This document shows positions 37,932 to 57,102 of a stretch of 64,000 bases of DNA, one piece after another. Both the position numbers and the translations under genes were made by a program. The DNA comes from Halorussus salinus (GTDB lineage: Archaea > Halobacteriota > Halobacteria > Halobacteriales > Haladaptataceae): contig NZ_ML974127.1 in NCBI RefSeq assembly GCF_004765815.2, forward strand, positions 1 to 64,000, written 5' to 3'. The notes beneath the pieces are model-generated. The model was not told the origin of the DNA and ran no database searches. It saw nothing but the letters and a program-made list of their open reading frames with translations. Within the stretch, counting starts at the first letter, position 1, and every line of letters starts with the position of its first letter.

Positions 37932-38004
37932 GGGCGGCTAGTTCAGCGGACAGAACGCTTGGTTCCGGACCAAGAGGTCATGGGTTCAAATCCCATGCCG
38001 CCCG
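37932..38004 (+). tRNA. tRNA-Arg (anticodon CCG)
   Basis: 73 nt without an intron. The acceptor stem GGGCGGC pairs with GCCGCCC (37997-38003), with discriminator G at 38004. The anticodon arm is CTTGG-TTCCGGA-CCAAG, giving CCG at positions 34-36. The T arm is CATGGG-TTCAAAT-CCCATG. CCA is not encoded. The last 13 bases recur at 39450-39462. Confidence 0.95.
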
Positions 38005-38082
38005 CGTGAACACTTTCTCAGCTAATTTCTCGCCCTTCGGGACTTAATACGTCATATTTCTTGTTCGGATGGTCTTCCTCTT

Positions 38083-38099
38083 CGTTCGATAATCGAACG
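38083..38099. other. 17-bp palindrome between tRNA-Arg and the HEPN gene
   Basis: CGTTCGA (38083-38089) and TCGAACG (38093-38099) surround TAA. It lies in the 146-bp gap 38005-38150 and could be a terminator or a recombinase or regulator site. Nothing else is seen in the gap. Confidence 0.4.
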
Positions 38100-38150
38100 G
38101 ACTCCCCTATTGGGACTTGACAGATAGTTGGATTCGACCCATCTTCTCGG

Positions 38151-38632
38151 TCACTGACAGAGACAGTCTTGCGTCCGCGTCAACGCGACCACTTCCTCGT
38201 GAAGCGTCTCGGCGAGCGAGAAGACCGTTTCGGCGCGATACTCCCCACCGATGCCCGTTCGATAGTACGATTCCGACCGATCTCGATCCAGAGCTTTTCG
38301 AGTCGGTCGGCGATATCCTGCGAGAACAACCCAGCACGGACGCCCTCGTCGTAGACCTCGGTGTGTCGCTGACCGGCAACGTCGTACCCCTTCTCCTCGA
38401 CGTAGAACTGTATCGACCGCTCGATGGCGACGAACGACGCTTCGATGATTACCGTAAAGTGGCCGTTTCGGTCGAGGAGAAAGCCCGCGGCGTCGAGGAG
38501 CCGACACGCTTTCCGCAACTGGAGGACCGACGACTCGGAGACGTACTCCAAGCCGACCTCCGGATTTTCGGGCCTGCGCTGGAAGGCGTCCTCCGTATCG
38601 CCGAGTGCCTCCTCCAGTTCGTTCGAGGTCAT
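38151..38632 (-). pseudogene. HEPN-domain toxin of an HEPN/MNT pair, frameshifted near its C-terminus
   Basis: From ATG 38632 the frame encodes a HEPN-type helical protein (LRKACRLLDAAGFLLDRNG, TVIIEASFVAIERSIQFYVE, QRHTEVYDEGVRAGLF) up to KLWIEIGRNRT near 38260. It then runs into 25 residues of basic, unrelated sequence to a stop at 38180. In the adjacent frame the protein continues convincingly as YYRTGIGGEYRAETVFSLAETLHEEVVAL to a stop at 38151. Adding one base near AATCGTAC/TATCGA restores a single protein of about 160 residues. It overlaps the MNT gene start-to-stop (TCAT at 38629-38632). Cause: inactivating mutation, sequencing error or recoding. Confidence 0.75.
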
Positions 38633-39288
38633 TCGCCCTCTCCTCCGAACACGTCGCGCTTCATTCGGTCGAACGTCTCGGTCTCGTACAAGACAATCCC
38701 TTCTTTGAGAATCGGTTGGAGGTTTTTACCCCGATTTCGGGCACTCTCGACGGATTCGACGAACACCTCGAACTCGTATCGCTGGCCGTCGATGGGTTCC
38801 GCTTCGAGGTCGCGCTTCACGTCCGAGATGGTCCGGCGCGCGGTCACCAGCTCGTCGTCGTTCTCGACTAGCACGAACGCGTCGATATCGCTCACGCGGT
38901 CGGCCTCGCCACGCGCCACACTCCCGAAGCAGACGACCCCTGCGACCGACGCCACTTCGTCGGCGACTTGCTCCACGAACGCGCGAAGCGGTTCTCGGAA
39001 CTCCGCCTGCGGAATCTCCAAGAACGGGTCGTCGGCCTCGCGGAGTCGCGCCTCCTCGATTCGGTAGAGGGTCTTTCGGCCGCTATCTCGCCGGACGACT
39101 AGTCCGAGCGTTTCGAGTAGAGAGAGTGCCTTCGAGACGCTCGGTCCGCCGAATCCGGTGAGTTCCTGTAGCTCGCTGTTTGTGAACTCGTCGGTCGGAT
39201 TCTGCGCCGCTATTTCGAGGATGTCGTCCATCGCCTCGTACCTGAAAATCTGGTCGTCGGGGAGGGGAAGTCGTATCTCGATGTGCAT
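38629..39288 (-). CDS. MNT-type nucleotidyltransferase with winged helix (antitoxin of HEPN/MNT)
   Basis: 219 residues. An N-terminal winged helix (FTNSELQELTGFGGPSVSKALSLLE) is followed by a minimal nucleotidyltransferase domain with GSVARGEADRVSDIDAFVLVE (about 117-137), the GSx10DxD motif. A third acidic residue is in EFEVFVES. MntA antitoxins inactivate HEPN RNases by adding AMP to a Tyr, and here the HEPN gene follows directly. A TAAACAAT box lies about 27 bases upstream on the minus strand. The winged helix could add DNA-binding autoregulation. Confidence 0.88.
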   Translation of the reverse strand: MHIEIRLPLPDDQIFRYEAMDDILEIAAQNPTDEFTNSELQELTGFGGPSVSKALSLLETLGLVVRRDSGRKTLYRIEEARLREADDPFLEIPQAEFREPLRAFVEQVADEVASVAGVVCFGSVARGEADRVSDIDAFVLVENDDELVTARRTISDVKRDLEAEPIDGQRYEFEVFVESVESARNRGKNLQPILKEGIVLYETETFDRMKRDVFGGEGE

Positions 39289-39449
39289 CTCTGTTATATA
39301 TGGCGTAATTGTTTATGCCTCATGTAAAGGTTTGTTATCTCTATTGAACGAGATGCTACCCAGTAGACCGTCAGAGCCTCGATGTAAATATGGAGGTAGA
39401 GCCTCTATACTGCCAGAAAGGAACTTAGCGTTCCCGGTCCGAACGAACG

Positions 39450-39462
39450 CCCATGCCGCCCG
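39450..39462. repeat. Copy of the tRNA-Arg 3' end (attR-like)
   Basis: CCCATGCCGCCCG, identical to 37992-38004, in the same orientation and 1458 bp away. It marks the right border of the HEPN/MNT element. Confidence 0.65.
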
Positions 39463-39524
39463 TGATTCTACGGCGACCTGTCGAGGCGATAGTTCTTACT
39501 CGTCGGCCCGAGATAGGCCGACAG

Positions 39525-40559
39525 ATGACCACGACAGTTCGACTCCGCCACGTACTCGACAAGTGTGAGACCGAGTGGGCACCCGACCCGCGCTCGACAG
39601 TCTTCGACCTAACTCCTGACGTGAACGGCGAGTACGTGTCGCTCTCGGGGACCGTGATGACGGTCGAGCAGTTGGCACGTGCGACGATGGCGGTCGAAGC
39701 CGTCGTCGGGGTCGCAGTAGACTCGAACGACGTGACGGTTCTCGCCGACGAGCAAGAGCCCCGGAGCGTCACCGAACCGGTCGTCTCGGTCCGCGGGGAA
39801 CCGGACGAGGAGGCCGAACGAGTGACGCAGGTACGCTACGGCTCGAATCTCGTCGCCTACGACGCCGACGGTGCGTGGCGACGAGTCCGGACTCCCGACG
39901 GTTACGTCGCGTGGGTCGAGCGCGCTGCGCTCTGTAAACCCGCGGATATCGACGCCAACGCGGTGGTATCCGCGGCGGTCGTCCGCGACGAAGACGACGG
40001 CGGTGACGTTCCCGAAGCGTTGTACGCCGGGACCGAGTGCGAGGTGCCGGAGTTCGCTCGTTCGGACGCCGCTGACGCCAGCGAGTCTGACCCCCACGGA
40101 CGCGTCCGCGTCCGGTTCCGGACCGGCGAGGAGACCACGCTGCCCGCCGAAGCGGTCGCTCCGATTCCCGACGAACCGACCCGCGAGGGCGTGGTCGCCG
40201 CCGCGCGAAGCTACCTCGGCACCGAGTACGTCTGGGGTGGAACGACCGTCGAGGGTATCGACTGCTCGGGGCTGACGTGGATGGCCTACCACCGAAACGG
40301 TATCGCGCTCCCCCGCGACGCCGACCTCCAGCGGCGAATCGGCGACGAGGTCGCCAGCGAAGATGTTGTGCCCGACGACCTCGAACCGGGGGACTTGCTC
40401 TTCTTCCCCGGTCACGTCGCGCTGAGTCTCGGCGGGGCCGAGTTCGTCCACGCCTACGGCGACGCGAACGAGGTAATCGTGGACAGCCTCGACCCGGACG
40501 CCGAGAACTACAACGCGCGACTGGACGAGGAGTTCGAGTTGGCGACCCGACTAATCTGA
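39525..40559 (+). CDS. SH3b-NlpC/P60 endopeptidase (YkfC-like)
   Basis: 344 residues from MTTTVRLRHVLD; upstream codons in the same frame look non-coding. Two SH3b-like beta domains (about 30-105 and 110-215; VTQVRYGSNLVAYDADG) precede an NlpC/P60 domain. Its Cys is in GIDCSGLTWMAY (about 247), and the His residues are in FFPGHVALSLGG and FVHAYG. WGG before the Cys is typical. Bacillus YkfC has the same SH3b-SH3b-NlpC order and cleaves the gamma-D-Glu-diamino-acid bond of murein peptides. No signal peptide is seen, so it should act in the cytoplasm. The DUF1611 and epimerase genes follow. Confidence 0.88.
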   Translation: MTTTVRLRHVLDKCETEWAPDPRSTVFDLTPDVNGEYVSLSGTVMTVEQLARATMAVEAVVGVAVDSNDVTVLADEQEPRSVTEPVVSVRGEPDEEAERVTQVRYGSNLVAYDADGAWRRVRTPDGYVAWVERAALCKPADIDANAVVSAAVVRDEDDGGDVPEALYAGTECEVPEFARSDAADASESDPHGRVRVRFRTGEETTLPAEAVAPIPDEPTREGVVAAARSYLGTEYVWGGTTVEGIDCSGLTWMAYHRNGIALPRDADLQRRIGDEVASEDVVPDDLEPGDLLFFPGHVALSLGGAEFVHAYGDANEVIVDSLDPDAENYNARLDEEFELATRLI

Positions 40560-40667
40560 GAATCCGGCACGAACTCGCTGAAAACTATCCGAGGGAGCGC
40601 CCGCGGAACCGTCGACCCTTCCATGCGTGGGGGTCCAATTTTACCGTTCCGTCCGTCAGAGTGACGC

Positions 40668-41711
40668 ATGGATTTACGGAGTGCGTTCGACCCGCCGGTC
40701 CCGACCGTCGTCCTCGCGGAGGGCGAGTTCGGCCGACCGGGCGGGAAGACTGCCAACGGCGTCGTCAGTCACAGCGAACTCTTCGCGGCGCGGGCGGTCG
40801 TGGACTCGACCCGCGCGGGCCAGACGGTAGACGAGGTCCTCGACCATCCCGGCGACTCGGACGTGCCAATCGTCTCGTCGGTCGAGGAGGCCCTGACGGT
40901 CGCCCCCGAGGCCGAGGCGCTGGTCGTCGGCGTCGCGCCCGCGGGCGGCGAGTTGCCCGACGAGTGGAAGGCCGACATCCGGGACGCGATTCGGGCGGGA
41001 TGCGACGTGGTGTCGGGTCTGCACGTCTTCCTCGGCGAGTCGCCCGAGTGGCGCGAGTTGGCCGACGACGCTGGCGTCCGCCTGTTCGACGTACGCAAAC
41101 CGCCCGGAGAAGACCAGTTACGCGTCGGCGACGGCCGCGTAGACGACGTGGACGCGACGGTGGTCCTCACGCTCGGCACGGACTGTGCGGTCGGCAAGCG
41201 TACGACCACCTTCGAGTTGTATCAGGCCGCGAAAGAGGCCGGACTCGACGCTGGCTGGGTCGCCACCGGCCAGACCGGCACGATGGTCGGCGCGCATCGG
41301 GGCGTCGTCATCGACCGCGTGCCCGCGGATTTCACCGCGGGCGTCGTGGAGGAGTTGGTCTGTGGCGTCGCCGAGGACCACGACCTCGTCTTCGTGGAGG
41401 GGCAGGCCGCGCTCTCCCATCGGGCCTACTCCGGAGTCACGCTCTCGCTGTTGCACGGCGCGAACCCCGACGCCGTGGTGCTGGCCCACGACCCCGACCG
41501 CGAGCGACGAACCCACTTCGACCAGTTCCCGGTCGGTTCGCCGGACGCCGAAATCGACCTGATAGAGTCGCTGGCCGACACCGAGGTCGCCGCCGTCTCG
41601 ACGTGGGGCGACCCGGCCGACAGCGACCTCGGTCGCCCCGCGGCGAACGTCTACCACGAGGGCGGCCCGGCGCGACTGTTGGACGCCGTGCGGGAGGCGA
41701 CCGACTCGTGA
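40668..41711 (+). CDS. DUF1611 protein (DgcN-like)
   Basis: 347 residues. An N-terminal Rossmann-like part (VVLAEGEFGRPGGKTANG) leads into a P-loop-like domain (LTLGTDCAVGKRTTTFEL, about 165-182), with GQTGTMVGAHRGVVIDRVPADF and FVEGQAALSHRAYSG. This is the DUF1611 family. A bacterial member, DgcN, N-acetylates D-glutamate and works with the enolase-superfamily racemase DgcA. Here it overlaps the epimerase gene by 4 bases (GTGA at 41708-41711), which is the same pairing. The substrate in haloarchaea is inferred only. Confidence 0.88.
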   Translation: MDLRSAFDPPVPTVVLAEGEFGRPGGKTANGVVSHSELFAARAVVDSTRAGQTVDEVLDHPGDSDVPIVSSVEEALTVAPEAEALVVGVAPAGGELPDEWKADIRDAIRAGCDVVSGLHVFLGESPEWRELADDAGVRLFDVRKPPGEDQLRVGDGRVDDVDATVVLTLGTDCAVGKRTTTFELYQAAKEAGLDAGWVATGQTGTMVGAHRGVVIDRVPADFTAGVVEELVCGVAEDHDLVFVEGQAALSHRAYSGVTLSLLHGANPDAVVLAHDPDRERRTHFDQFPVGSPDAEIDLIESLADTEVAAVSTWGDPADSDLGRPAANVYHEGGPARLLDAVREATDS

Positions 41712-42832
41712 CCGACGACGCCGGAAGCGGCGACCTCGAAGGTGACGCCGGGTCCGAAATCCGGGTCGCCGAGGTCCGAGCCGACCCCCTGAATCTCGAA
41801 CTCGACGCACCCTTCGAAATCGCGCTCGGCACGCGTCACGAAGCCCGGAACCTCCTCGTGGAAGTCGAGACTGACGAGGGCGTCGTCGGCTACGGCGAGG
41901 GGTCGCCCCTGCCGCCCGTGACCGGCGAGACGCAGGGTGCCGCGGTAGCGATTGCGCGGGAGGCCGGAGACCTCCTCGAAGGTCGAAATCTCGCGGACTA
42001 CCGCGCGCTCTGTAGTGACCTCCGGGCGGCGTTCCCCGGCGCGAACTCGGCGCTGTTCGCGCTCGAAACCGCGGTGCTGGACGCCTACTGCCGGAGCCGA
42101 GGGCTGGCGCTCTCGGAGCTGTTCGGCGGCCCTCCTCGACCGGTCGAGACCGACCTGACGATTCCCATCGTCGGGGCCGACGAAGCCCGCCAGCGGGCGA
42201 GCGCGGCCGCGACTGCGGGTGACGGCGCGGGCTTCGCGCACCTCAAAATCAAGACCGGCGACGAGGTCGAGGCGGCGGTCGAGCGCGTGGTGGCCGCCCG
42301 CGAGGGCGCGCCCGACGCCGAACTCAAGGTGGACGCCAATCAGGGCTGGACGCCCGAGGAGACCCTTCGGTTCGTCCGGCGACTCGGGGAGCGCGGCGTC
42401 GAGTTGGGGCTCCTCGAACAGCCGGTCCACCGCGACGACCTCGCGGGGTTGGCGCGGGTCCGGGACCGTGCGCGAGTCCCGGTCGCGGCCGACGAGGCGG
42501 TCTTCTCGCCCGAGGACGCGCTCGCGGTCGTCCGGGCCGACGCCGCCGACGTGCTGAACGTGAAGTTAGGCAAGTCCGGCCCGATTGCGGCCGCGGAAAT
42601 CGCCGCCATCGCAGAAGCCGCGAATTTGGAGTTGATGGTCGGGTGCATGCTCGAAAGCGCGCTCGGCATTCACGCGAGCGCCCACGTCGTGGCGGGCCTC
42701 GGGTCGTTCGACTACGTGGACTTGGACGGTAATCGCCTGTTGGCCGAGGATGTAGTGGCGTCGGGCCCGGAGTCGGGTCCCGAAATCTCGATTACCGGGC
42801 CGGGTCACGGCGTCGTCCCGGAGCGGTCGTGA
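41708..42832 (+). CDS. Dipeptide epimerase, enolase superfamily (YkfB/DgcA-like)
   Basis: 374 residues from a GTG overlapping the previous stop. It has the enolase-superfamily capping domain and a barrel with catalytic residues: the KxK pair in AHLKIKTG (about 180), metal ligands in KVDANQGW, LEQPV and AADEAVF, and the second-face Lys in NVKLGKSGPI (about 285). Family members in this group include L-Ala-D/L-Glu epimerase and N-acetyl-D-Glu racemase. The neighbouring YkfC-like gene favours an Ala-Glu-type dipeptide; the DUF1611 partner favours the D-Glu route. Confidence 0.9.
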   Translation: MTDDAGSGDLEGDAGSEIRVAEVRADPLNLELDAPFEIALGTRHEARNLLVEVETDEGVVGYGEGSPLPPVTGETQGAAVAIAREAGDLLEGRNLADYRALCSDLRAAFPGANSALFALETAVLDAYCRSRGLALSELFGGPPRPVETDLTIPIVGADEARQRASAAATAGDGAGFAHLKIKTGDEVEAAVERVVAAREGAPDAELKVDANQGWTPEETLRFVRRLGERGVELGLLEQPVHRDDLAGLARVRDRARVPVAADEAVFSPEDALAVVRADAADVLNVKLGKSGPIAAAEIAAIAEAANLELMVGCMLESALGIHASAHVVAGLGSFDYVDLDGNRLLAEDVVASGPESGPEISITGPGHGVVPERS

Positions 42833-42891
42833 CGACGCCGCACTGCCGCGAGCGGAACACTCATTACCATCGTGCAATGTCATCATAACTC

Positions 42892-43626
42892 ATGAGCGTG
42901 ACGCGCATCTCGGAGGCCGACGACGGCGTCTCCTACAAGCAGGTCGAACTCGACCTCTGGCACCCCAACTGCTGGACGCTGGAAGTGACCGACGACCACC
43001 CCGATACCCACGTCATCGAGAAGTCGCTGTACCCCACCGACGACCAGATAAAGGGCGACTTCCTGCTGGTCGCTGACGGCGAGACGGACATCGAGACGTT
43101 CGTCGAGGCCATCGACGACCACCGCGTCGTCGGCGAGGTCGCGGTCCTCAAGCAGTCGGCCGAGCGCGCTCGCGTCGTCGTCAACTACGAGCGCACGAGC
43201 AGTATCGTCCCCGACATCGTGAACTCGGAGTTCATGCCGGTGGACCCGGTTCACATCACCGAGGGCACCGAACACTGGACCGTGCTGGTCAAGGCCGACC
43301 GACTCGGCGAAGTGGTCGAAGCGATGCAGGCCGAGTACGACGTGGACGTGAGTTCGATTCGGGAGGCCGACTCGAAGGAGAGCGTCGAGTTCGCCGACTT
43401 CGTGGACCAAGTGGAAGACCGCCTCTCTGCCCGCCAGACCGAGAGCCTGCTGAACGCTCGGCGCATCGGCTACTACAACTGGCCCCGCGACGTGTCGGCC
43501 GACGCCGTGGCCGACTGTCTGGACGTGAGCAAGCCGACCGTCCTCGAACACCTCCGGAAGGGCGAACAGAAGGTGTTGAACCTCTGTCTGGACGAACTCG
43601 AACGCCGGAAGGGTCGCCAGCGATGA
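42892..43626 (+). CDS. Bacterio-opsin-activator-type HTH regulator
   Basis: 244 residues with an N-terminal sensory region (YKQVELDLWHPNCWTLEVTDD) and a C-terminal HTH_10 domain (LSARQTESLLNARRIGYYNWP, then VSADAVADCLDVSKPTVLEH). The stop overlaps the start of the S9 peptidase gene (ATGA at 43623-43626), so the two are cotranscribed. It is a candidate local regulator for the peptide-use genes on both sides. Confidence 0.9.
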   Translation: MSVTRISEADDGVSYKQVELDLWHPNCWTLEVTDDHPDTHVIEKSLYPTDDQIKGDFLLVADGETDIETFVEAIDDHRVVGEVAVLKQSAERARVVVNYERTSSIVPDIVNSEFMPVDPVHITEGTEHWTVLVKADRLGEVVEAMQAEYDVDVSSIREADSKESVEFADFVDQVEDRLSARQTESLLNARRIGYYNWPRDVSADAVADCLDVSKPTVLEHLRKGEQKVLNLCLDELERRKGRQR

Positions 43627-45794
43627 CCGGCGGTCGGGACGCCAACAGTGACGAGTCGCGGCGAGCCGACGCCGACGCACCGCCACAGGACGACGCCGAC
43701 GAATCGTCGCCCGACGACGCCGACCTCGAAATTGCAGACGTTCTCGACGTGGACTACCCGAGCGCGCCCGAGTGGTCGGCCGACGGCGCGTTTCTCGGAA
43801 CGCTCGTGTACGAGGACGACGGGAACGTCCTGCTGGTCGCCGACGCTGACTCTCCGGCCGACGCCGACGCTCCCGCCGACTCGTGGCGCGTCGCGCCGGA
43901 CGCCGACATCGAGGGCCACGCCACCGGCTTCGCGTGGGCACCCGAGTCCCGACCGACCGAGTTCGTCCTGACGACTGACGCGGGCGAGACCTACCGGGGC
44001 GACGCCGCCGACCGCTCGCTCCGACTCGTCGCCCGGTCGCCCGGCGGCGAGGCTCACCACGAGTGGTCGCCGTCGGGCGACCACCTCGCGTTCTACCACG
44101 ACGGAGCGGTCTGCGTCCGGGACGCCGACTCGGGTGCCGAGCGCCTCCTCGACCTGCCGACCCGCGACACGTTCCTCCCCGGCGAGCGCACGCTGGCGTG
44201 GAGCGATTCGGGTGGTCTCCTCGGCTTCTCGTTCACCGACCGCGAGTCCCGGCAGGTCGGCGTCGCGGACGCGGCGTCGGGCGAGTTGCTCTGGCGGACC
44301 GACGCGCCCGCGTCGTGTGCGAATCCGACGTGGCTCGCGGACGGCCGGGTCGTCTTCGAGCGCATCGAGGAGAACCGGACCGTCCGGTCGATAGTCGCAG
44401 TTGACCCCGACTCCGGCGACGAGACCGAACTGGTCCGCGACGAGGACGAGCGCGGCACCGTCTCGTCGGGCGCGCCGACCGTCTCGCCCGACGGGACGCG
44501 ACTCGCCGTCGCGCTCCCGCTCGACGGGTGGGAACACGTCTACGTCCTGCATTGCGAGACCGGCGAGCGTCGGCAGTTGACCACGGGCGCGTTCGAGGAC
44601 AAGGGACTCGCCGGGTCGTCTCCCCAGTGGGTGGACGACGAGACGCTGGCGTTCGCGTCGAACCGCCGGGACCCCGGCGAGCGACAGCTTTTCGCGGTCG
44701 ATACCGAGACCGAGGAGACCCGCCCGCTGGTCGAATCGCGGGGCACGAACGTCTCCCCGCGACCGTCGCCCGACGGGGACCGACTAGCGTACGTCCACGC
44801 CGACGCCGGAGTGTCGCCCGAGGTCCGGGTGCAGTCGCTCGGCGAGGGCGACGGTACGAGCGACAGCGCGGACGACGCGCCGGAGCGAGTCACGCGCTCC
44901 GTGGTCGAAGACTGGCCAGTCGCGCCGCTCGCGCCCGAGGCGGTCAGTTTCGAGAGCGCGGACGGCCACGAGATTTCGGGCTACCTGTTCGACCCGCGGG
45001 AGGCCGAGGTAGGCGAGGCTGGTGCGGGCGACGGACGGGCGGCCGACGCGACCGACGGCGACGACGAGGCCGACCTGCCCGCGGTAGTCTGGGTCCACGG
45101 CGGCCCGATGCGCCAGATGCGCGACGGCTGGCACTCCTCGCGGTCGTACGGCCTCGCCTACGCGTTCCACCAGTACCTCGCGCGGCGGGGCTACGTCGGC
45201 CTGCTGGTCAACTACCGCGGCGGCATCGGCTACGGCCGGGAGTTCCGCCAGTCGCTGACCGAGGGGTACGGCCGCGACGAGATGGCCGACGTGGTGGCTG
45301 GCGCGGAGTTCCTGCGCGAGCGGGAGTTCACGCCGGGAAACGTCGGCATCTGGGGCCTCTCGTACGGCGGCTACGCCGCGCTCCAGATTCTCGGCACCCA
45401 CCCCGAGGCGTTCGACGTGGGCGTCAACCTCGCGGGACTGGCCGACCTCGAACTGTACGAGGAGTGGGCGACCGAGACGAAGTTTCCCGCCATCGAGTCC
45501 ACCCAGTCGCTGACCTTCGGCGGGAACCCGTGGACGGCCGACGACGAGTGGGCCGCGGCGAGTCCGAAGACCCACTTCGGGAACTACGAGGCACCGGTGT
45601 ACAACTTCCACGGCACGGGCGACTCGTACGTCAACTTCGAGCAGTTGGACGTAGTTATCGAGGGGATGCTCGACCATGAAAACGAGTACGAGGCCGAGTA
45701 CTACCCCGGCGAGAACCACGTCTTCGCCGAGCGCGCGACGTGGGAGCGCACCTTCGAGAAAATCGAGTCGGCCTTCGAGACGCATCTGAAGTGA
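43623..45794 (+). CDS. S9-family peptidase (acylaminoacyl-peptidase/DPP type)
   Basis: 723 residues. Residues 30-420 form a WD40-like (TolB/DPP) beta-propeller with repeated strand patterns (HHEWSPSGDHLAFYHDG, PTVSPDGTRLAVAL, PRPSPDGDRLAYVH). The alpha/beta hydrolase domain has the oxyanion strand VVWVHGGPMRQM and the nucleophile Ser in GIWGLSYGGYAAL (about 578). The Asp is in the GTGDSYVNFEQ turn and the His in YPGENHVF. There is no signal peptide. It degrades short peptides in the cytoplasm. An acidic, low-complexity insert sits before the catalytic domain. Confidence 0.93.
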   Translation: MTGGRDANSDESRRADADAPPQDDADESSPDDADLEIADVLDVDYPSAPEWSADGAFLGTLVYEDDGNVLLVADADSPADADAPADSWRVAPDADIEGHATGFAWAPESRPTEFVLTTDAGETYRGDAADRSLRLVARSPGGEAHHEWSPSGDHLAFYHDGAVCVRDADSGAERLLDLPTRDTFLPGERTLAWSDSGGLLGFSFTDRESRQVGVADAASGELLWRTDAPASCANPTWLADGRVVFERIEENRTVRSIVAVDPDSGDETELVRDEDERGTVSSGAPTVSPDGTRLAVALPLDGWEHVYVLHCETGERRQLTTGAFEDKGLAGSSPQWVDDETLAFASNRRDPGERQLFAVDTETEETRPLVESRGTNVSPRPSPDGDRLAYVHADAGVSPEVRVQSLGEGDGTSDSADDAPERVTRSVVEDWPVAPLAPEAVSFESADGHEISGYLFDPREAEVGEAGAGDGRAADATDGDDEADLPAVVWVHGGPMRQMRDGWHSSRSYGLAYAFHQYLARRGYVGLLVNYRGGIGYGREFRQSLTEGYGRDEMADVVAGAEFLREREFTPGNVGIWGLSYGGYAALQILGTHPEAFDVGVNLAGLADLELYEEWATETKFPAIESTQSLTFGGNPWTADDEWAAASPKTHFGNYEAPVYNFHGTGDSYVNFEQLDVVIEGMLDHENEYEAEYYPGENHVFAERATWERTFEKIESAFETHLK

Positions 45795-46120: not shown

Positions 46121-47523
46121 TCACTCCGACAACTCTCGGACGAACTCGTCTTGACGCCGCCGCGCCTCGTCGGCTTCGACCGTCAGGCCGCCGTAGACGA
46201 CCGAGAAGAACACGTCCGGCTCCTCCTCCCGGCGGACCACGCCCGAGAGCGCGCTCGTCCCGGTCACGGTGCCGGTCTTGGCGCGAAGCTCCTCGACGCC
46301 CTCCAAGCGCGACGATAAGGTGCCCTCGCCCGGCGCGGGGAGCGAGCCGAAGAACTCCTCGGCCCACGGCGCGTCGTCGGCCCGCGCCAGCAGGCCGACC
46401 ATCCCCCGCGCGGTGACGAGGTTGTAGCGCGACAGTCCCGACCCGTCGCGGATGCGGCAGGCCGCCGCGCCGCAGTCTTCGAGGTAGTCGGTGGCGAGCG
46501 ACTCCCACGCCGCCCACGACTCCTCGCCGTCGCGGCGCTCGCTGGCGACGGTCCGGGCCAACTGCTCGGCGACGAAGTTGTCCGACGAGACGTTCATCGC
46601 CCGGAGGAGGTCGGCGACCGGCGCGGACTCGACGGTGCGGGCGAACGCTTCTGCGTCCGGTATCGCCGCCGAGTCGGTCGCGGTCGAATCGGCCGATTCG
46701 ACCGCGAGAACGTCGTCGGACTCCATGGAGCGAACGTCGCCCGCGACGCTCACACCCACCGATTCGAGCGCGTCGAGAAAGACGAGTCCGCAGTGGCGCT
46801 CGGGCCGGACGACCGGCGCGCGCTCGGTCCGGTCGGCTCCCGCGGGGAGCGCCCCCGCGACGCGAATCACTCCGCTGTCGGGGTCGGTCGTTACGCGGAG
46901 GTCCGACCGGTCGTCTCCGCTCTCTCCCTTCTCGCCATCCTCGTCCTCGCCGTCCGCCTCGACGGCGCACAGGTCGGTCTCGACCGCGATTTCGTCCGAG
47001 TTGGGCGCGACCGAGACCCGGAACTCGCCGGTCTCCTCGGGGTCGGTAATTCGGACCTCGACCGCGTTGCCAGCGAGCGCGAGCGCGCTACTCGGCGCGC
47101 CGTAGGCGTGTCGCCGGTCGCCGACGGTCCACCCCGGCCCGTAGCGGCCGTCGGTGAACCGCGTCCCGTCGAGGAGAACGTCGCCCGTCACCTCGCCGAC
47201 CGCCGCGGCGGTCTCCTCGGCGAGCGCGCGCAGGTCCTCGGCGTCGAGGTCCGGCGCGCCCGACCCCCGAAGCAGGAGGTCGCCCGCGAGTCGGTCGCCG
47301 TCTCGCTCGCCGCGGCCCTCGACGCGCGTCTCGAACGTATAGTCGGGGCCCAGTGCTTCGAGCGCGAGCGCCGACGTGACGAGTTTGGTGTTCGACGCCG
47401 GGGTGAGCGCCCGGTTGGGGTCGAGGCTCGCCAGAATCTGGTCGTTCTCGCCAGCGTCTCGCGCGACGGCCAGCGCCCCGACGCTCGCGCCGTCGATTCC
47501 GGCGAGCTGCGCGGTCGCGTCGC

Positions 47524-47527
<4 letters not shown>
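46121..47527 (-). CDS. S13-family D-Ala-D-Ala carboxypeptidase/endopeptidase (DacB-like)
   Basis: 468 residues from a GTG that overlaps the dppF-like stop (GTGA, 47524-47527). The penicillin-binding triad is complete: SxxK in ASNTKLVTS (about 45), SxN in NVSSDNFVAEQL (about 315) and KTGT in LRAKTGTVTGTSALSG (about 410). The central part contains the extra domains of PBP4/S13 enzymes. There is no signal peptide, so it is predicted cytoplasmic, unlike bacterial DacB. The gene is the last of a six-gene oligopeptide-transport operon. Haloarchaea lack peptidoglycan, so the substrate is probably imported or is not murein. Confidence 0.9.
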
Positions 47528-48812
<1,285 letters not shown>

Positions 48813-48816
<4 letters not shown>

Positions 48817-49865
48817 CGGTCACCTCCCGAGAGGCCGCCAGCGGCTCCGCCCTCGCGGTCGGAGTCGCCCGTCTCGTGGAGTCGCGGGTCGGACTTGCTC
48901 TCGTCGCCGTAGAGCAGGCAGGCGGTCGCGTGGTCCGGGCCGACCTCGTAGTCGGGGGGTTCGACCTCGGCGCAGTCGGCGAACGCCGCCGGACACCGCG
49001 TCCGGTAGCGACACCCCGAGGGCGGGTCGATGGCGCTGGGCATCGACCCCTCGATGGGGTCCAACTCGTCGGCCCGCCGGTCGGCGGTCACGGTCGAGCG
49101 GAGCAGGGCCTGCGTGTAGGGGTGCTTGGGATTGCGATACAGCTCCTCGTAGGGCGATTTCTCGGCGATTTCGCCGAGGTACATCACGGCCACCCGGTCG
49201 CACACTTCGCGGACGACCCCGAGGTCGTGGGTCACGTATATCATGCTCGTGTCGTACTCCGTCTGGATGTCGTTGAACAGGTCGAGAATCTGGGCCTGAA
49301 TCGTCACGTCGAGCGCGGTCGTCGGTTCGTCGGCGATTATCAGGTCCGGTTCGCACGACAGCGCCATCGCGATGATGGCGCGCTGTTGCATCCCGCCCGA
49401 GAACTCGTGGGGGTACTGGTCGGCGCGCTCGGCCGGGTCGGGGATGCCAACGTCGTCCAACAGTTCGACCGTGCGGTCCCACGCCTCGGCCTCGGTCACG
49501 TCGCGGTGATGTTCGATGATTTCGGAAATCTGGCTCCCGACGGTAAAGACGGGGTTGAGCGCCGACATGGGGTCTTGGAAGATGAACGAAATCTCCTTGC
49601 CCCGGACCTGCTCGCGGAGTTCGGTCTCCGAGTAGTCGAGCAACTCCTCGCCCTTGAACCGAATCGACCCGTCAACGACGTGGCCCGGCGGCCGAATCAG
49701 GCCCAGCAGGCTCTGGACCGCCACGGACTTGCCCGCGCCGCTCTCGCCGACCAGTCCCAGCGTTTCGCCGCGCTCTATCTCGAAGCTGATACCGTCCACC
49801 GCCTGCACGATGCCCTCCTCGGTGTAGAAGTACGTCGTGAGGTCTTCGACTTCCAGCAGGGCCAT
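48813..49865 (-). CDS. Peptide/nickel-type ABC transporter ATP-binding protein (DppD-like)
   Basis: 350 residues: Walker A GESGAGKSV (about 39), signature SGGMQQR, Walker B LIIADEPTTALD and the C-terminal oligopeptide-binding CRYRTRCPAAFADC. It pairs with the DppF-like ATPase. Its start shares one base with the stop of the dppC-like gene (49865) and its stop overlaps the dppF start. Confidence 0.93.
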
Positions 49866-50914
49866 CAGTCGTCACCTCCGCCCTGCGGGTCGGGACCCGG
49901 ACCGGCGTCGGTCGGGTCGGCGTCCGGCGTCGCGCGGGCCGGGGCGTCGGGGTCGGTGGTCCCCGGCATCGGTAGGTTCTCCTCGTCGTAGGGCTGGCGG
50001 AGCGTCGTCTTGGGGTCCATCGCGTCGCGCAGGCCGTCGCCGAGCATGTTGAACCCCATCACCGTCAGGAATATCATCAGGCCGGGGAACGCCGCGACCC
50101 ACGGCGCGATGAGCATCGCCTGCTGGGCGTCGTTCAACATTCGGCCCCACGATGCGGTCGGCGGTTGGACGCCGAACCCGAGGAACGACAGCGCGGCCGC
50201 GCCGATGATGACGCTCCCCAACGAGAGGGTCGCTTGCACCAGCACCGCCGCGAAGCCGTTGGGCACGATTTCGCGGAGCAGAATTTTGTACGTCGGCAGG
50301 CCCGCGGCGCGCGCGGCGTCCACGTATTCCTCCTCGCGGATGGACAGCACTTCCGAGCGCATCACGCGGGCGTAGGCCGGGATACCGATGATGCCGTAGG
50401 CCAGAAAGAGGTTCCAGATGCTCGCGCCGAAGATGGCCATGAACGTCATCGCCAACACGAGGCCCGGAATCGAGTACAGGACCTCGACCAGTCGCATCAG
50501 CACGTCGTCGGTGTAGCCCCCGCTGTAGGCCGCGAACGACCCGACGAGGACGCCGCCGACGAACGAGATGCCGACCGCGACGATGCCGATGGAGAGCGCG
50601 ACGCGGGTCCCGTAGATGATGCGGGCCAGCACGTCGCGGCCGAACTGGTCGGTTCCCATCGGATGCTCGACCGATGGCGGCGCGTAAGCGTTTATCTGGT
50701 CGTGCGCGTGGGGGTCCGCGACCAGCGTCGTGATGATGGCCTTGTCGAGCAGGAACTTGTCCACGGTCGAGACGACCGCCAGCACGACGAGCGTCCCGAC
50801 GATGAGTCCGCCCGCGAGCGCGGTCGGACTGTGTCGCAGTTCCTTGAGTGTCGATACGATGCCGCTCTCGGTCTCGAAGTCCGCACTGGAGACGGTGGTA
50901 CTTTTCGAACTCAT
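49865..50914 (-). CDS. Peptide/nickel-type ABC transporter permease (DppC-like)
   Basis: 349 residues. There is one N-terminal membrane helix (LAGGLIVGTLVVLAVV), a large external loop (EHPMGTDQFGRDVLARIIYG, the OppC motif) and a five-helix permease core with the EAA-type loop GLPTYKILLREIVPNG. A Pro/Asp/Gly-rich tail of about 35 residues is a haloarchaeal addition. Coupled to dppB upstream and dppD downstream. Confidence 0.92.
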   Translation of the reverse strand: MSSKSTTVSSADFETESGIVSTLKELRHSPTALAGGLIVGTLVVLAVVSTVDKFLLDKAIITTLVADPHAHDQINAYAPPSVEHPMGTDQFGRDVLARIIYGTRVALSIGIVAVGISFVGGVLVGSFAAYSGGYTDDVLMRLVEVLYSIPGLVLAMTFMAIFGASIWNLFLAYGIIGIPAYARVMRSEVLSIREEEYVDAARAAGLPTYKILLREIVPNGFAAVLVQATLSLGSVIIGAAALSFLGFGVQPPTASWGRMLNDAQQAMLIAPWVAAFPGLMIFLTVMGFNMLGDGLRDAMDPKTTLRQPYDEENLPMPGTTDPDAPARATPDADPTDAGPGPDPQGGGDD

Positions 50915-50915
50915 A

Positions 50916-51866
50916 TCAATCGTACCTGATTCGGGGGTCGATGTAGGCGTACGCGAGGTCGGTCAGCAGGACGCCGACGAGGAACAGGACGGCGAAGAAG
51001 ATGTTCAGCCCGATGATGACGCCGTAGTCGTTGTTCAACAGGCCGTTGTAGCCGAGCCGTCCCATGCCGGGGATGGCGAAGATGGACTCCACGATGACGC
51101 TCCCGTCAAGCAGGAACGACAGTTGGAGTCCGATGATGGTCACGAGGGGCAACAGCGCGTTTCGGAAGGCGTGGCGGAGCAGGATGGTCCGCTCGGGAAG
51201 CCCGTAGGCGCGCGCCGTCTCGACGTAATCCTTCGATAGCTCCTCGACCATCGAGGAGCGCGTCATCCGCATCAGCGTCGCGGTCTGTGCCGTCGCGAGT
51301 GTGATAATCGGTAACACGAGATGCTTGGCCGCGGCTACGGGGTCCTCGAACGGCGAGACGTACCCCGACGCCGGGAGCGCGTTGAACTCGTAGGCGAACA
51401 GGAAGATGAGCATCAGCCCGAGCCAGAAGTTCGGCGTCGAGAGGCCCGCGAGTCCCGCGAACCGCGAGATATGGTCGCCCAACTGGTTGTGTTTGGCCGC
51501 CGAGTAGACTCCGAGCAGGAGGGCCGTCGGGAGCGCGATGACGTACGACAGGCCCATCAACATGACCGTCGGCCCCATGCGTTCGAGCATGAGGTCGGTC
51601 ACCGGCCGCTTGCGCATGAACGACTCGCCGAGGTCGAACTGCAACAGCCGCCAGAGGTAGTCGAGGTACTGCTTCCAGAGCGGTTGGTCGAAGCCGTACC
51701 GCCGTATCAGTTCGTCCGCGAGGGCCTGACTCGGGTTCAGGCCCAGATATATCCGAACCGGATTCCCCGGCAGGGCGTGGACCATCACGAACGTGAGGGT
51801 GAACACGCCCAACAGGACCGGGATTATCTGGAGCGTCCGACGAATCGCGTATCTGTACAGGCTCAT
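50916..51866 (-). CDS. Peptide/nickel-type ABC transporter permease (DppB-like)
   Basis: 316 residues, six transmembrane segments. The N-terminus YRYAIRRTLQIIPVLLGVFTLTFVM and the loop AYGLPERTILLRHAFRN are OppB/DppB signatures. Its stop is one base from the dppC-like start. Together they form the import channel. Confidence 0.93.
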   Translation of the reverse strand: MSLYRYAIRRTLQIIPVLLGVFTLTFVMVHALPGNPVRIYLGLNPSQALADELIRRYGFDQPLWKQYLDYLWRLLQFDLGESFMRKRPVTDLMLERMGPTVMLMGLSYVIALPTALLLGVYSAAKHNQLGDHISRFAGLAGLSTPNFWLGLMLIFLFAYEFNALPASGYVSPFEDPVAAAKHLVLPIITLATAQTATLMRMTRSSMVEELSKDYVETARAYGLPERTILLRHAFRNALLPLVTIIGLQLSFLLDGSVIVESIFAIPGMGRLGYNGLLNNDYGVIIGLNIFFAVLFLVGVLLTDLAYAYIDPRIRYD

Positions 51867-51948
51867 ACGTGACGTGTCGTTCGACGTGAGCGTCTCATTG
51901 TCATTGGGTAACTATAATCGTGCTGGATGCGGAAACGGGAGAGGGTCG

Positions 51949-53673
51949 CTACTTTTCGACGTACGCGTTCGACCACTCGTTACAGAGCGGTTGTTGGGCG
52001 AACGCGCTCGGTTCGTAGTCTTTCACGTCCTTGCTCCACGCAGTGGCGGCCTGCTCGGAGAACACCGGGATTTGGGGGTACAGCGACTGCCACGTTTCGG
52101 CGGCGTCGACGTACATCTGCTTGCGCTCGGCCCTGTCGTTCGTCCGACGGGCCTGCCGAATCGTCTCGTCGGCCTGCTGGAGTTGGTCGCTGTCACTGCT
52201 CTGGTAGAGGTACGCGGCCGTCGCGTTCCCGACCACGTTGTCGTTCATGCCGCCCTCGTCGTTGCGCAGGTCCCGGAACATGTAGTAGTAGAACCCGTCG
52301 GGGTCCTGTCCGCCCGACCAGCCGTAGATGTTCACGTCGAACTTGCCTTGGTCGAGTTCCGTGAGCCACTGGCCGATGGTGACCTCTCGGACGTTCGACT
52401 GTATGCCGACCTTCTTCAGTTCCTTCTGGAGGATGATGGCCAAGTTCTTGAACTTCGAACTGGCCAGCGACGATATCTTGAGCGTCTTGTCCATGCCGCC
52501 GCCGTAGCCCGCCTCCTTCAGGAGCTGTTTGGCCTTCTGGTGGTCCTTTGCGGGGTAGTACTTCTCCTTCCACTCCTGCCACGGGAACTCCCACGACTCG
52601 TTGACTCCCTGCGGCATGAAGCCGTAGGAACGCTTGCCGAGTTGGCCCTTCGTGGCCTCCAGCATCTCGTCGTAGTCCACGAGGTACTGCATCGCTTCCC
52701 GGACTTTCACGTTATCGAACGGCTTGCGCATCGAGTTGAAGACGAGGCCGTTGTAGTCGAAGTGCGAGATGCGTTTCATCTCGATGCTCTGCTCGTTTTG
52801 GGCCTTCCCCAGCAAGTTCTTGGGAACGGTGGCCTGATGGACGCCGCCGGAAGCCAGTTCCACGAACTGGACCTGCGGTTTGGGGATGACCCGCATCCGA
52901 ATCTTCTCCAAGTTCGGCTGTTTCAGGAAGTAGTCGGCGTTTCGCGTCAGGTCGATGTGCGACGACGAGACTTGCTTGTCGAACGCGAACGGGCCGGAAC
53001 CGACCGGGTTCTGGCCGAACTGCTTCTGGCCTCTCTCCTCGGCGACGCTCTTGGGCACGATGCCCGCGTTCATCCCCGACAGCACCAGTTGGAACAGCGC
53101 GAAGGGGTACTTGAGGTTGAACGTCGCTTCGTACTTGCCCGACGCCTCCACGCTGTCCACGAAGTCGAGGTTCGCCTTGTTCGGCGACTTGTTCGCGGGG
53201 TCGAGCATCCAGTTGATGGAGTAGGCCACGTCCTCGGCCGTGAACTCGTCGCCGTTGTGGAACGTCACGCCTTCCTTGAGCGGGATGACGAACGTCGTCT
53301 CGTCTTGCTGTTTGGGTTGTTCTTTGGCGAGGTGGGGGACGAACTTCTTCCCGTCCGGACTCGGGAGGTACAGCGTGTCGAAGATGTAGTGGAGGAAGCC
53401 GTTCACCCACGCGAGTTCGTTCATCCGGGGGTCGAGCGTGGTGGCGTCCTCCGTCGTCGTCCCGATGAACGTGCCTCCACCCTGCACGTTCTGTTGCTGT
53501 TGTTCGGTCGTCTCGGTACCGCCCATCGACTCCTCGGATGTGGTACTCCCGCCGCTAGTGGTCGTCTCTTGGCCGCCGTCGCCGCCGGTACAGCCAGCCA
53601 ACACGCTACCACCCAACAGACCCGAGGTCGCGAGGAAACGACGCCGGTCGAATTTCGTGCGTTCGTCAGTCAT
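51949..53673 (-). CDS. Peptide-type ABC transporter substrate-binding lipoprotein (DppA-like)
   Basis: 574 residues of the SBP_bac_5 family. The N-terminus DRRRFLATSGLLGGSVLAGC has a Tat twin-arginine motif and a lipobox (LAGC), typical of haloarchaeal binding proteins. A Thr/Ser/Gly/Gln-rich linker follows. Family segments include FVIPLKEGVTFHNGDEFTAEDV and KPFDNVKVREAMQYLVDYDE. It is the first gene of the operon, with 82 bp to dppB. Bound ligand: oligopeptides, dipeptides or possibly murein peptides. Confidence 0.93.
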   Translation of the reverse strand: MTDERTKFDRRRFLATSGLLGGSVLAGCTGGDGGQETTTSGGSTTSEESMGGTETTEQQQQNVQGGGTFIGTTTEDATTLDPRMNELAWVNGFLHYIFDTLYLPSPDGKKFVPHLAKEQPKQQDETTFVIPLKEGVTFHNGDEFTAEDVAYSINWMLDPANKSPNKANLDFVDSVEASGKYEATFNLKYPFALFQLVLSGMNAGIVPKSVAEERGQKQFGQNPVGSGPFAFDKQVSSSHIDLTRNADYFLKQPNLEKIRMRVIPKPQVQFVELASGGVHQATVPKNLLGKAQNEQSIEMKRISHFDYNGLVFNSMRKPFDNVKVREAMQYLVDYDEMLEATKGQLGKRSYGFMPQGVNESWEFPWQEWKEKYYPAKDHQKAKQLLKEAGYGGGMDKTLKISSLASSKFKNLAIILQKELKKVGIQSNVREVTIGQWLTELDQGKFDVNIYGWSGGQDPDGFYYYMFRDLRNDEGGMNDNVVGNATAAYLYQSSDSDQLQQADETIRQARRTNDRAERKQMYVDAAETWQSLYPQIPVFSEQAATAWSKDVKDYEPSAFAQQPLCNEWSNAYVEK

Positions 53674-54252: not shown

Positions 54253-55596
54253 TCAATCCTTTCGCCCCGGCGCGGACTCGTCAGACGAAGCGTCCGGCGA
54301 GACGGCCGCCGACCGGCCGGAGGTTGCCTCGTCCCGCAGGTCGCCGGGGATGCGGTCGTTTCCTAACACGTCCTCGCAGGTCTCGCGGGCGCGAATCGAC
54401 TCGACCTCACCGGATTCGCGCACCAGCACGACCGGGGGTTTCGGTTCGGCGTTGGTGTGACTCGCGCTCCCGAGCGAGTACGCGCCGATTCGGTCCACCG
54501 CGAGTACGTCGCCGCGGTCGAGTTCCGGCAGGGTCACGTCCTCCTGAATCACGTCGCCGGTGTAACAGAGCGGTCCGGCGACGTGGTACGATTCGGTGGC
54601 GTCGCCCTCCGAGAGCGCGTAAATCGGGTAGGGCCAGTACGAGGAGACCGCGTTCGTTCCGGCGTCCAGCACGGCGAAGGCGGCGTGGGGCGTCTCCTTC
54701 ACGACGCCGACCGACGCGAGGAGCGTCCCCGCGTTGCCGACGAGGCGGCGCCCCGGTTCGACGCAGAGGGTCGGTTCCGCGAGATCGTGGTCGGCCGCCG
54801 CGCTCCGCACCGCGTCGGCCATGCTCGCCACGATGGTCTCGGTGTCGGGAACCTCCTCGTCGTAGGGGACAGGGAAGCCCCCGCCGAGGTCCAACACGTC
54901 GATTTCGACGCCGGTCTCGTCGCGCACGTCGGCGGCGAACGAGAGCATCTCGCGGGCCGCGACCTCGTAGGGTTCGACGCCGCGAATCTGGCTCCCGACG
55001 TGCAACTGGACGCCGACGAGTTCGACGCCCTCGGCCGCCGCGGCGTCTTTTGCGACCGACAGCGCCCGGCCCGACTCGATGTCCAGTCCGAACTTGCTCT
55101 CGCGGGTCGCGGTCGCCACCTCAGGGTGGGTCGGTACCTCCATCGCCGGATTCCCGCGAATCAGCACCTCGGCGGTGGCGTCGGTCCGCGCGGTCGCTTC
55201 CCGAATCTTCGCCAACTCCTGTTCGTTGTCCACGAGGAACCGCTCGACGCCGAGGTCCAGCGCGCGCTCCACGTCCTCGACGGGCCGGTTCATCCCGGTC
55301 AGAAGCACGTCCTCGGGGTCGAATCCGGCGGCCTGCGTCGCCGAGAGTTCACAGCGTGCGTAGGCCTCGGCGTGACAGCCCTCGTCACGGAGGACCGACA
55401 GGACGCCGAGGTTGTAGTTGGCCTTGACCGCGAAGTGAACCGTCGAGTCGGGGTAGTGGTCGTCTAACGCCGACCGGACCTCCCGGTAGTTGCGCCGCAG
55501 GTCCTCCTCGAAGAAGGCGTACAGTGGCGTGTCGAACTCCTCGAAGAGCGCGTCTCGGTGGTCCAGCAGTCGGGCTTTGCGTGCCGCTAAGTCCAT
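54253..55596 (-). CDS. Fold-III PLP decarboxylase, diaminopimelate-decarboxylase-like
   Basis: 447 residues. The PLP Lys is in VHFAVKANYNLGVL (about 59). HVGSQIRGVEP, DLGGGFPVPYDEE and EPGRRLVGNAGTLL form the phosphate-binding and substrate sites, and the second-subunit Cys-x-x-x-Asp is GPLCYTGDVIQ (about 343) rather than the usual CESGD. It therefore fits the DAP/ornithine decarboxylase family but with altered specificity residues, so the substrate is uncertain. An acidic tail of about 45 residues follows the fold. Neighbours suggest amino-acid or peptide use rather than lysine synthesis. Confidence 0.85.
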   Translation of the reverse strand: MDLAARKARLLDHRDALFEEFDTPLYAFFEEDLRRNYREVRSALDDHYPDSTVHFAVKANYNLGVLSVLRDEGCHAEAYARCELSATQAAGFDPEDVLLTGMNRPVEDVERALDLGVERFLVDNEQELAKIREATARTDATAEVLIRGNPAMEVPTHPEVATATRESKFGLDIESGRALSVAKDAAAAEGVELVGVQLHVGSQIRGVEPYEVAAREMLSFAADVRDETGVEIDVLDLGGGFPVPYDEEVPDTETIVASMADAVRSAAADHDLAEPTLCVEPGRRLVGNAGTLLASVGVVKETPHAAFAVLDAGTNAVSSYWPYPIYALSEGDATESYHVAGPLCYTGDVIQEDVTLPELDRGDVLAVDRIGAYSLGSASHTNAEPKPPVVLVRESGEVESIRARETCEDVLGNDRIPGDLRDEATSGRSAAVSPDASSDESAPGRKD

Positions 55597-56022: not shown

Positions 56023-57102
56023 ATGGACGAACCCGCCGTCCGCTTCGCGGACCTCGAAACGCTGGTCGCGGCGCGCGGCCCGCCGGGCGCAGAGTACCCC
56101 GTCGCCGACGCCTTCGCCGAACTGGTCGAACCGCACGTCGATTCGGTGACGTACGACGAGATGGGTAACGTAATCGCCACGAGCGAGGGCGACCCCGACG
56201 CGCCCGAGATTTTGCTCGCGGCCCACACCGACGAACTCGCCATGCTCGTGGACGGCGTGACCGACGACGGCTTTCTGGAGTACACGATGCTCGGCGGTCA
56301 CTACAAGGGGAACTTCCCCGGCCAGCGCGTCCGGGTCGGTCCCGACGGCCTCCTCGGCGTCGTCGGCGCGAAGTCCCGCCACTACATGTCCGACGACGAG
56401 AAGGCGTCGCTGGCGGAGAATCTCGTCGTAGACGTGGGCGCGACGAGTCGCGCCGAGGTCGAGGAGTTGAACGTCGAACCCGGCGACCACGCGATGTGGG
56501 ACCGCGAGGTCGCCGACCTCGCCGGGGACCGCATCACGGGCCGGGCGCTCGACGACCGCCTCGCGCTGGCGGTCCTCCTCGGGGTCGCGCGCGCCGCCGA
56601 CACCGACGCCACGGTCCACTACGCCGCCACGGTGCAGGAGGAGGTCGGCCTCCGGGGCGCGCGGGCGACCGGGTTCTCGGTGGACCCCGACGTGGCCGTC
56701 GCGGTCGAAATCTTCCCGGCCGACGACTACCCCGCGGGCGGCGACGACGGGCCGGATGTCGAACTCGGCGCGGGGCCGGTCGTGGAGTTCGGCGACGGCA
56801 CCTCCGAGTACATGTTCGGGGGCGTGTTGGTCGATAGGCAGACGCGCTCGTGGCTCGAAAGTGCCGGGGAGTCGGCCGACGTGGCGCTCCAGCAGGCCGT
56901 GATGATAGGCGGGACCACCGACGCCACCGAGTTCCAGCAGGTCGCTGGCGGGCGACACGCCGGAGCCATCGCGGTCCCCTGTCGCTACACTCACTCGCCG
57001 GTCGAGACGGTCTCACTCGCCGACGCGAACGAGACGGCGGCAGTTCTCACGGAAGCACTGGCGACGGAGTTCCCGTCGCGCGAGGAGGTCCGGTGGGGAT
57101 GA
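56023..57102 (+). CDS. M42-family metallopeptidase (deblocking/glutamyl aminopeptidase type)
   Basis: 359 residues. The metal ligands of the family are visible: His in LLAAHTDELAML (about 70), Asp in TGRALDDRLALAV, the Glu pair in TVQEEVGLRGARATG, Asp/Glu in VAVEIFPADDY, and His in CRYTHSPVETVS (about 326). It is a cytoplasmic, oligomeric aminopeptidase family. The stop overlaps the next gene (ATGA, 57099-57102). It is probably part of peptide turnover. Confidence 0.9.
   Translation: MDEPAVRFADLETLVAARGPPGAEYPVADAFAELVEPHVDSVTYDEMGNVIATSEGDPDAPEILLAAHTDELAMLVDGVTDDGFLEYTMLGGHYKGNFPGQRVRVGPDGLLGVVGAKSRHYMSDDEKASLAENLVVDVGATSRAEVEELNVEPGDHAMWDREVADLAGDRITGRALDDRLALAVLLGVARAADTDATVHYAATVQEEVGLRGARATGFSVDPDVAVAVEIFPADDYPAGGDDGPDVELGAGPVVEFGDGTSEYMFGGVLVDRQTRSWLESAGESADVALQQAVMIGGTTDATEFQQVAGGRHAGAIAVPCRYTHSPVETVSLADANETAAVLTEALATEFPSREEVRWG

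Follow-up and report, generated by a model that had tools for sequence, protein, structure and literature searches.

A second type of haloarchaeal DUF1611-epimerase gene pair, found in Halorussus within a ykf-like gene island

A DUF1611 gene that runs directly into a gene for an enolase-superfamily epimerase recalls the DgcN/DgcA system of bacterial D-glutamate catabolism, and raises the question of whether such a pair is that system or a module with a role of its own. Here we address this question for a pair in Halorussus salinus, within the 64,000-nucleotide stretch of DNA analysed (contig NZ_ML974127.1, positions 1 to 64,000; hereafter the window). A first-pass annotation had named the genes as the DgcN/DgcA pair, probably translated together, and had proposed that with the NlpC/P60 gene upstream they could form a single degradative line. 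DgcN reportedly adds an acyl (acetyl) handle to the free D-amino acid in D-glutamate catabolism, and enolase-type epimerases (AEE, DgcA, N-acylamino-acid racemases) act on carboxylates with an acylated alpha-nitrogen.

The gene pair and its relation to DgcN/DgcA

Both reading frames and the four bases that they share are present as first described (Table 1). The DUF1611 product matches PF07755 (E = 8e-63) and PF17396, and the epimerase PF13378 (E = 3.5e-42) and PF02746. By frame arithmetic, an in-frame RTGA junction is kept in 25 of the 29 pairs of this type that we fetched, the window's counted, with a 1-nt overlap in two others and neither arrangement in the last two; the overlap is therefore not a chance feature, and the coupling of the two genes proposed earlier is borne out across homologous pairs. 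The other haloarchaeal type of DUF1611-epimerase pair has the RTGA junction in 17 of 18 cases, the exception being the copy in H. salinus itself, where a 28-nt gap separates the genes.

Table 1 Features of the locus, in window coordinates.
Feature	Position	Strand	Details
NlpC/P60 protein, YkfC-like (SH3b + C40 domain)	39525..40559 (alternative ATG 39453)	+	344 aa; Pfam
Palindromic operator-like site CCCTTCCATGCGTGGG	40616..40631	.	one of two exact pattern sites in 4.75-Mb genome
TATA-like AATTTTA	40637..40643	+	25-31 nt before DUF1611 start
DUF1611 protein, haloarchaeal type 2 (Rossmann-like N domain + P-loop C domain)	40668..41711	+	ATG start, 347 aa
GTGA stop/start overlap, DUF1611/epimerase	41708..41711	+	sequence
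Enolase-superfamily dipeptide-epimerase-type protein (YkfB/TM0006 side)	41708..42832	+	GTG start, 374 aa
HTH_10 (Bat-type) regulator	42892..43626	+	PF04967
S9 prolyl-oligopeptidase-family peptidase	43623..45794	+	ATGA overlap with HTH_10
DacB/PBP4-type D-Ala-D-Ala carboxypeptidase	46121..47566	-	TIGR00666 199.5 bits (cut-off 107.8); SxxK, SSDN, KTG present
Oligopeptide ABC transporter OppF, OppD, OppC, OppB, OppA (five ORFs)	47524..53673	-	permeases by synteny with H. halophilus
LysA, diaminopimelate decarboxylase	54253..55596	-	TIGR01048 331.4 bits (cut-off 297.9)
M42-type aminopeptidase	56023..57102	+	also synteny

The H. salinus genome (4.75 Mb, 11 contigs) contains three PF07755 genes: the window copy, one at C2:207039 followed across the 28-nt gap by its own epimerase, and a lone copy at C1:148067 adjoined by an HTH_10-like gene. 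The C2 pair belongs to type 1 and the window pair to type 2, and both modules occur together here and in genomes G274, G024, G009 and G045. In several genomes (L045:11697, L046:3854, L047:11826, L051:11794) a third enolase-superfamily protein is encoded upstream of the type-2 DUF1611; this protein has no DxD motif (YVHAAST) and forms a group separate from either epimerase type.

Against the NCBI equivalog models, the window DUF1611 scores 196.6 bits for DgcN (NF041892; cut-off 480) and the epimerase 160.5 bits for DgcA (NF042940; cut-off 400). The C2 pair scores higher (DgcN 256.8, DgcA 250.6 bits) and still falls below both cut-offs; for comparison, a DgcA-annotated record (451.9) and a Sinorhizobium relative (498.1) exceed that for DgcA. 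The two-domain DUF1611 core with its GTDC..GK P-loop, a feature of DgcN, is present in the window protein, and 40 invariant columns, GTDC..GK and EGQ among them, are common to it, TM0796, an annotated DgcN, the type-1 protein of the same genome and bacterial DUF1611s.

For the epimerase phylogeny we relied on a careful 32-row tree with an AU test in preference to a 76-row quick tree with long branches, although the two agree on the placement of the window protein. It clusters with B. subtilis YkfB (1jpm), E. faecalis 3jva, TM0006 (2zad), 3s5s and 3u9i (support 99/97), and the AU test rejects a tree that forces it together with the C2-type, DgcA, 4gfi and E. coli AEE rows (P = 0.00326). Its best NCBIfam match is NF041118, the family of Thermotoga maritima TM0006 (255 bits), but it remains below the cut-off of 500. 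Muconate cycloisomerase, the branch that had been named as a refutation of the earlier reading, finds no support in the score (TIGR02534, 176.9 bits against a cut-off of 334.95). The DUF1611 tree splits into a C2-type and a window-type clade with bacterial DgcN apart from both, and bacterial DUF1611s, most of which have a PLP racemase as partner, fall on the window side (support 97/91; the branch of the Streptomyces row is very long).

The window pair shares with DgcN-DgcA the order of DUF1611 before an enolase-superfamily racemase, the overlapping genes and the conserved DUF1611 core, but its epimerase lies on another branch, its neighbour is an HTH_10 gene instead of the LysR-type DgcR, and a nearer pair exists elsewhere in the same genome. 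As judged from sequence, the earlier name is one of homology, not of identity: kinship with DgcN/DgcA stands, and identity fails on the equivalog scores, the higher-scoring C2 pair and the YkfB/TM0006 placement. The pair looks like a second, separate version of the pathway already described for glutamate, and annotating every DUF1611-epimerase pair as DgcN-DgcA would miss this second module. Among the titles and opening lines of abstracts that we searched in one library, none mentioned a DUF1611-epimerase pair of type 2 or a ykf-like island in haloarchaea.

Active-site residues and the ykf-like island

Arg24 of YkfB is a ligand for the side chain of Glu, and the DxD motif of dipeptide epimerases binds the dipeptide amine. 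Aligned with PDB sequences, the window epimerase keeps the whole catalytic set (YkfB numbering: K162, K268, D191, E219, D244, D321/D323), that is, both catalytic lysines, three metal ligands and a DLD motif; the roles of the lysines are stated for YkfB in passages of PMC5808125. Arg24 of YkfB is replaced by Gly, and an Arg at column 26 aligns with Arg24 of E. coli AEE. This column is mostly Lys in relatives from peptidoglycan loci, Gln in many DUF1611-linked ones, and neither Arg nor Lys in TM0006, for which the same source reports activity on L-Ala-Phe/Tyr/His dipeptides (PMC5808125). We rejected the DxD motif as a discriminator between dipeptide epimerases and DgcA: because DgcA carries it too, it does not decide specificity.

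The NlpC/P60 gene lies on the same strand, 108 bp upstream of DUF1611, and its product has no obvious signal peptide by eye. Its best PDB relatives are chains of dipeptidyl-peptidase VI (3npf/3pvq), followed by B. cereus YkfC (3h41). Extracts from the YkfC study describe Asp256 as indispensable to the specificity for a free L-Ala at the N terminus, tie it to a conserved SH3b tyrosine, and list the subfamily from four bacterial phyla (PMC2954226). Equivalents of Asp256 (PRDA/PRDS) and of the SH3b Tyr118, together with the catalytic Cys/His/His, are present in all 12 haloarchaeal NlpC sequences compared, the window's included; a protein search found such NlpC proteins in 23 of 292 Halobacteria. 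With these hallmarks in place, the enzyme should release L-Ala-D-Glu; the first-pass annotation had expected it to release D-Glu-containing dipeptides.

The plus-strand NlpC/P60, DUF1611, epimerase, HTH_10 and S9 peptidase genes face those for DacB and Opp, beyond which lie LysA and the M42 peptidase. In H. halophilus the annotated order is the same (NlpC/P60, DUF1611, dipeptide epimerase, helix-turn-helix, prolyl oligopeptidase, dacB, Opp, lysA, M42), and it mostly recurs in a third Halorussus genome, with NlpC 5.3 kb away. Islands of Opp, dacB, lysA, NlpC and epimerase occur in Natrialba magadii, H. halophilus and others; on N. magadii pNMAG01 the series is Opp, dacB, lysA, NlpC/P60, dipeptide epimerase, serine hydrolase and D-aminoacylase, with no DUF1611 in that stretch. 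At this murein locus (L102:16375-17973), the genes for the serine hydrolase and the D-aminoacylase follow directly on that for the dipeptide epimerase. Of the neighbours scanned around the window pair, none was recognisable as a deacylase.

The B. subtilis dpp-ykf cluster resembles the Halorussus island in its YkfC-type NlpC/P60, YkfB-side epimerase and peptide ABC transporter. The island differs in being archaeal, in the addition of DacB, LysA and DUF1611 and in the replacement of Arg24, and no LdcA/YkfA was recognised among the Halorussus genes scanned. By eye, the DacB/PBP4-type protein has no signal peptide in the ORF as called; were it cytosolic, D-Ala would be released within the cell. 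On the minus strand at 38180-39288, the gene for a MarR/nucleotidyltransferase protein (weak MntA-like match) overlaps the next ORF, which encodes 150 aa and matches no Pfam family; the two are possibly a HEPN/MNT-type pair.

Genomic partners and the upstream palindrome

Across Halobacteria, we counted by hand from coordinates 50 matches to the epimerase (at least 50% identity over most of the length, in 46 of 292 genomes, a fragment in G026 left out) and 49 to the type-2 DUF1611 (45 of 292 genomes). DUF1611 accompanies 41 of the 50 epimerases and is absent from nine; conversely, 41 of the 49 DUF1611 genes adjoin an epimerase and eight do not. An NlpC gene is found near 3/41 DUF1611-linked epimerases, all in Halorussus, versus 8/9 of the others (Fisher P = 2.6 × 10−6, uncorrected for relatedness). 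Reading the neighbourhoods of 38 of the 50, the window included (29 with DUF1611 and nine without), left this picture unchanged. In the 32-row tree, the nine DUF1611-linked rows, the window's among them, form a subclade (support 98/96) with the NlpC-only epimerases outside; in the quick tree one NlpC-only row, L076, falls within it. Three genomes (G045, G047, G082) carry separate NlpC-linked and DUF1611-linked epimerases, which suggests different substrates for the two.

The epimerase mostly has either DUF1611 or NlpC for a neighbour, and the three-gene line is therefore a special case. We rejected NlpC, DUF1611 and epimerase as a general operon for the class. The proposal of a single degradative line is upheld by neighbourhood within Halorussus and not class-wide, and DUF1611 has an operator-like and TATA-like region of its own. 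The murein context is stronger than was known when that proposal was made, but it is not general.

Upstream of type-2 DUF1611 genes, a palindrome of the form ~CCYTYNCATRNRARGG is found in the −51 to −58 range, immediately ahead of a TATA-like AT peak (about −29 to −25 across 26 homologous upstream regions). The best palindrome site falls in that interval in 27 of 32 type-2 upstream regions versus 2 of 18 type-1 regions, none of the latter scoring above 8.5; the consensus had been derived by eye from these very type-2 regions and is to that extent circular, and the type-1 regions and a reversed pattern serve as controls. In the H. salinus genome the pattern CCCTYNCATRNNNGGG has two sites, both before a type-2 DUF1611 (the window copy and the lone copy, L082), and the reversed control one. 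Across the class, 25 of 292 genomes contain CCCTYNCATRNRAGGG and 22 of 292 its reverse; the number of sites is thus not clearly above the control, and only their placement is. At the 27 CCCTYNCATRNRAGGG loci fetched, several of them from one genus and two sites only 83 bp apart, seven sites lie 52-55 nt before a type-2 DUF1611 and 15 are accompanied by an HTH_10 homologue; one or other gene is present at 21 loci and neither at six, compared with 0/22 for the reversed pattern.

Other genes at these sites, among those scanned, encode Asp/Glu/hydantoin-racemase-family proteins (two), amino-acid permeases (three), an MFS transporter and an aldehyde dehydrogenase. Most stand beside HTH_10 regulators, and one of the permeases is at a site without one. 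These placements suggest that an HTH_10 protein may bind the palindrome. An Rfam search of 38000-46000 returned nothing at gathering scores.

A tentative role for the type-2 module and its alternatives

From the genes, their overlap, the catalytic residues, the YkfC hallmarks, the neighbourhoods, the phylogeny and the operator-like site, we infer substrates, an acyl transfer, an order of steps and a location for DacB and NlpC. The explanation we prefer, tentatively and at rather less than even likelihood, is that type 2 is a second haloarchaeal module for acylating a D-amino acid and epimerising the N-acyl product, set in Halorussus within a ykf-like island. DUF1611 would N-acylate a free D-amino acid, most likely N-acetylating it by analogy with DgcN; the co-translated, Mg-dependent two-lysine epimerase would invert the alpha-carbon of the N-acyl amino acid, and a deacylase would then open the product to the L-amino acid. 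In the island, Opp would import stem peptides, DacB remove D-Ala, the YkfC-like NlpC/P60 cut out L-Ala-D-Glu and the same epimerase convert it to L-Ala-L-Glu, with peptidases finishing the breakdown and LysA turning meso-DAP into lysine. One epimerase could serve both entries, since the D-Glu of L-Ala-D-Glu is N-acylated from the start and a free D-amino acid would have to be given an acyl handle first; we therefore favour a shared enzyme in Halorussus, with a free D-amino acid as the probable usual substrate of the pair elsewhere. Several points count against this explanation: the lack of NlpC near 38 of the 41 DUF1611-linked epimerases, which means that the joint line is not general, the three genomes with separate NlpC-linked and DUF1611-linked epimerases, the Gly in place of Arg24, the PLP-dependent partners described below and the failure to recognise a deacylase.

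The module may instead handle a D-amino acid other than Glu, for example D-Ala or a basic one, the Halorussus NlpC gene being an incidental neighbour. The coexistence of both types, which would make a D-Glu duplicate redundant, speaks for this, as do the loss of Arg24, the Orr-type ornithine/alanine racemases paired with bacterial DUF1611s of the type-2 side and the operator-linked permeases; we nonetheless consider it unlikely, given the Arg, Lys or Gln that aligns with Arg24 of E. coli AEE and the recurrence of NlpC, DUF1611 and epimerase together in three Halorussus genomes. Less probable again is that the epimerase converts only L-Ala-D-Glu from murein and DUF1611 acts on D-Ala or D-Glu in an unrelated side reaction: sister NlpC-linked epimerases do occur in ykf-like loci without DUF1611, but 41 of 49 type-2 DUF1611 genes adjoin an epimerase, mostly without NlpC, and the translational overlap is tight. 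That the pair is a plain DgcN/DgcA duplicate, acetylating D-Glu and racemising N-acetyl-D-Glu and nothing else, seems the most doubtful reading despite the family pair, order and overlap of dgcN-dgcA in Pseudoalteromonas donghaensis and a 2023 ISME J title (Yu et al., reference in PMC12363236) that claims the D-glutamate pathway for halophilic archaea, since both equivalog cut-offs are missed, a nearer pair exists in the same genome, the epimerase sits on the YkfB/TM0006 side (AU P = 0.003) and an HTH_10 gene replaces the LysR-type DgcR.

To our knowledge, haloarchaea have no peptidoglycan of their own. Whether the peptidoglycan hydrolases of archaea are tools of predation or of scavenging is a question posed in a 2025 paper (PMC12352652); a haloarchaeal ykf-like island that combines a transporter, DacB, a YkfC-type endopeptidase and an epimerase would open the scavenging side to direct tests.

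DUF1611 also keeps other company. In the best 80 of 577 DUF1611 relatives from Archaea and many bacterial phyla (a contig scan whose loci are not independent, many being from Rhodobacterales, and whose first query row, TM0796, was one letter off), DUF1611 adjoins a racemase or epimerase at 70 loci, and these belong to two unrelated folds. An Orr-type PLP racemase lies directly downstream at 41 of these best 80 and an enolase-type epimerase nearby at 29, of which 28 are within ~65 bp (one on the opposite strand) and one is 1.5 kb away; eight of the 80 have neither and two end at a contig edge. The eight revealed no common partner among the neighbours scanned (10 ORFs from five loci and one more); one of the eight overlaps a PALP-family PLP enzyme.

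The PLP-linked pairs of Vibrio and Rhodobacterales resemble the window pair in having an overlapping or adjacent racemase after DUF1611, but the racemase fold is unrelated to that of the window epimerase. PLP racemases need a free amine, so these partners fit badly with acylation before racemisation, and the DgcN reaction model also needs testing on the PLP-linked branch. More speculatively, DUF1611 could be a general partner for interchangeable racemases, the haloarchaeal second module having taken up a YkfB-type epimerase and, in Halorussus, joined a complete cytoplasmic ykf-like pathway controlled by HTH_10 through the palindromic operator; we regard this broader picture as possible, though short of probable. 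In Phaeobacter, Vibrio europaeus and Aliiroseovarius, plasmids (L105:5938-8189, L106:5905-8189, L108:5857-8228) carry a bacterial DUF1611 gene that overlaps the gene of an Orr-type PLP racemase; the three racemases match the NCBI ornithine-racemase model Orr below its cut-off, and groES/groEL lie near the pairs of Phaeobacter and V. europaeus.
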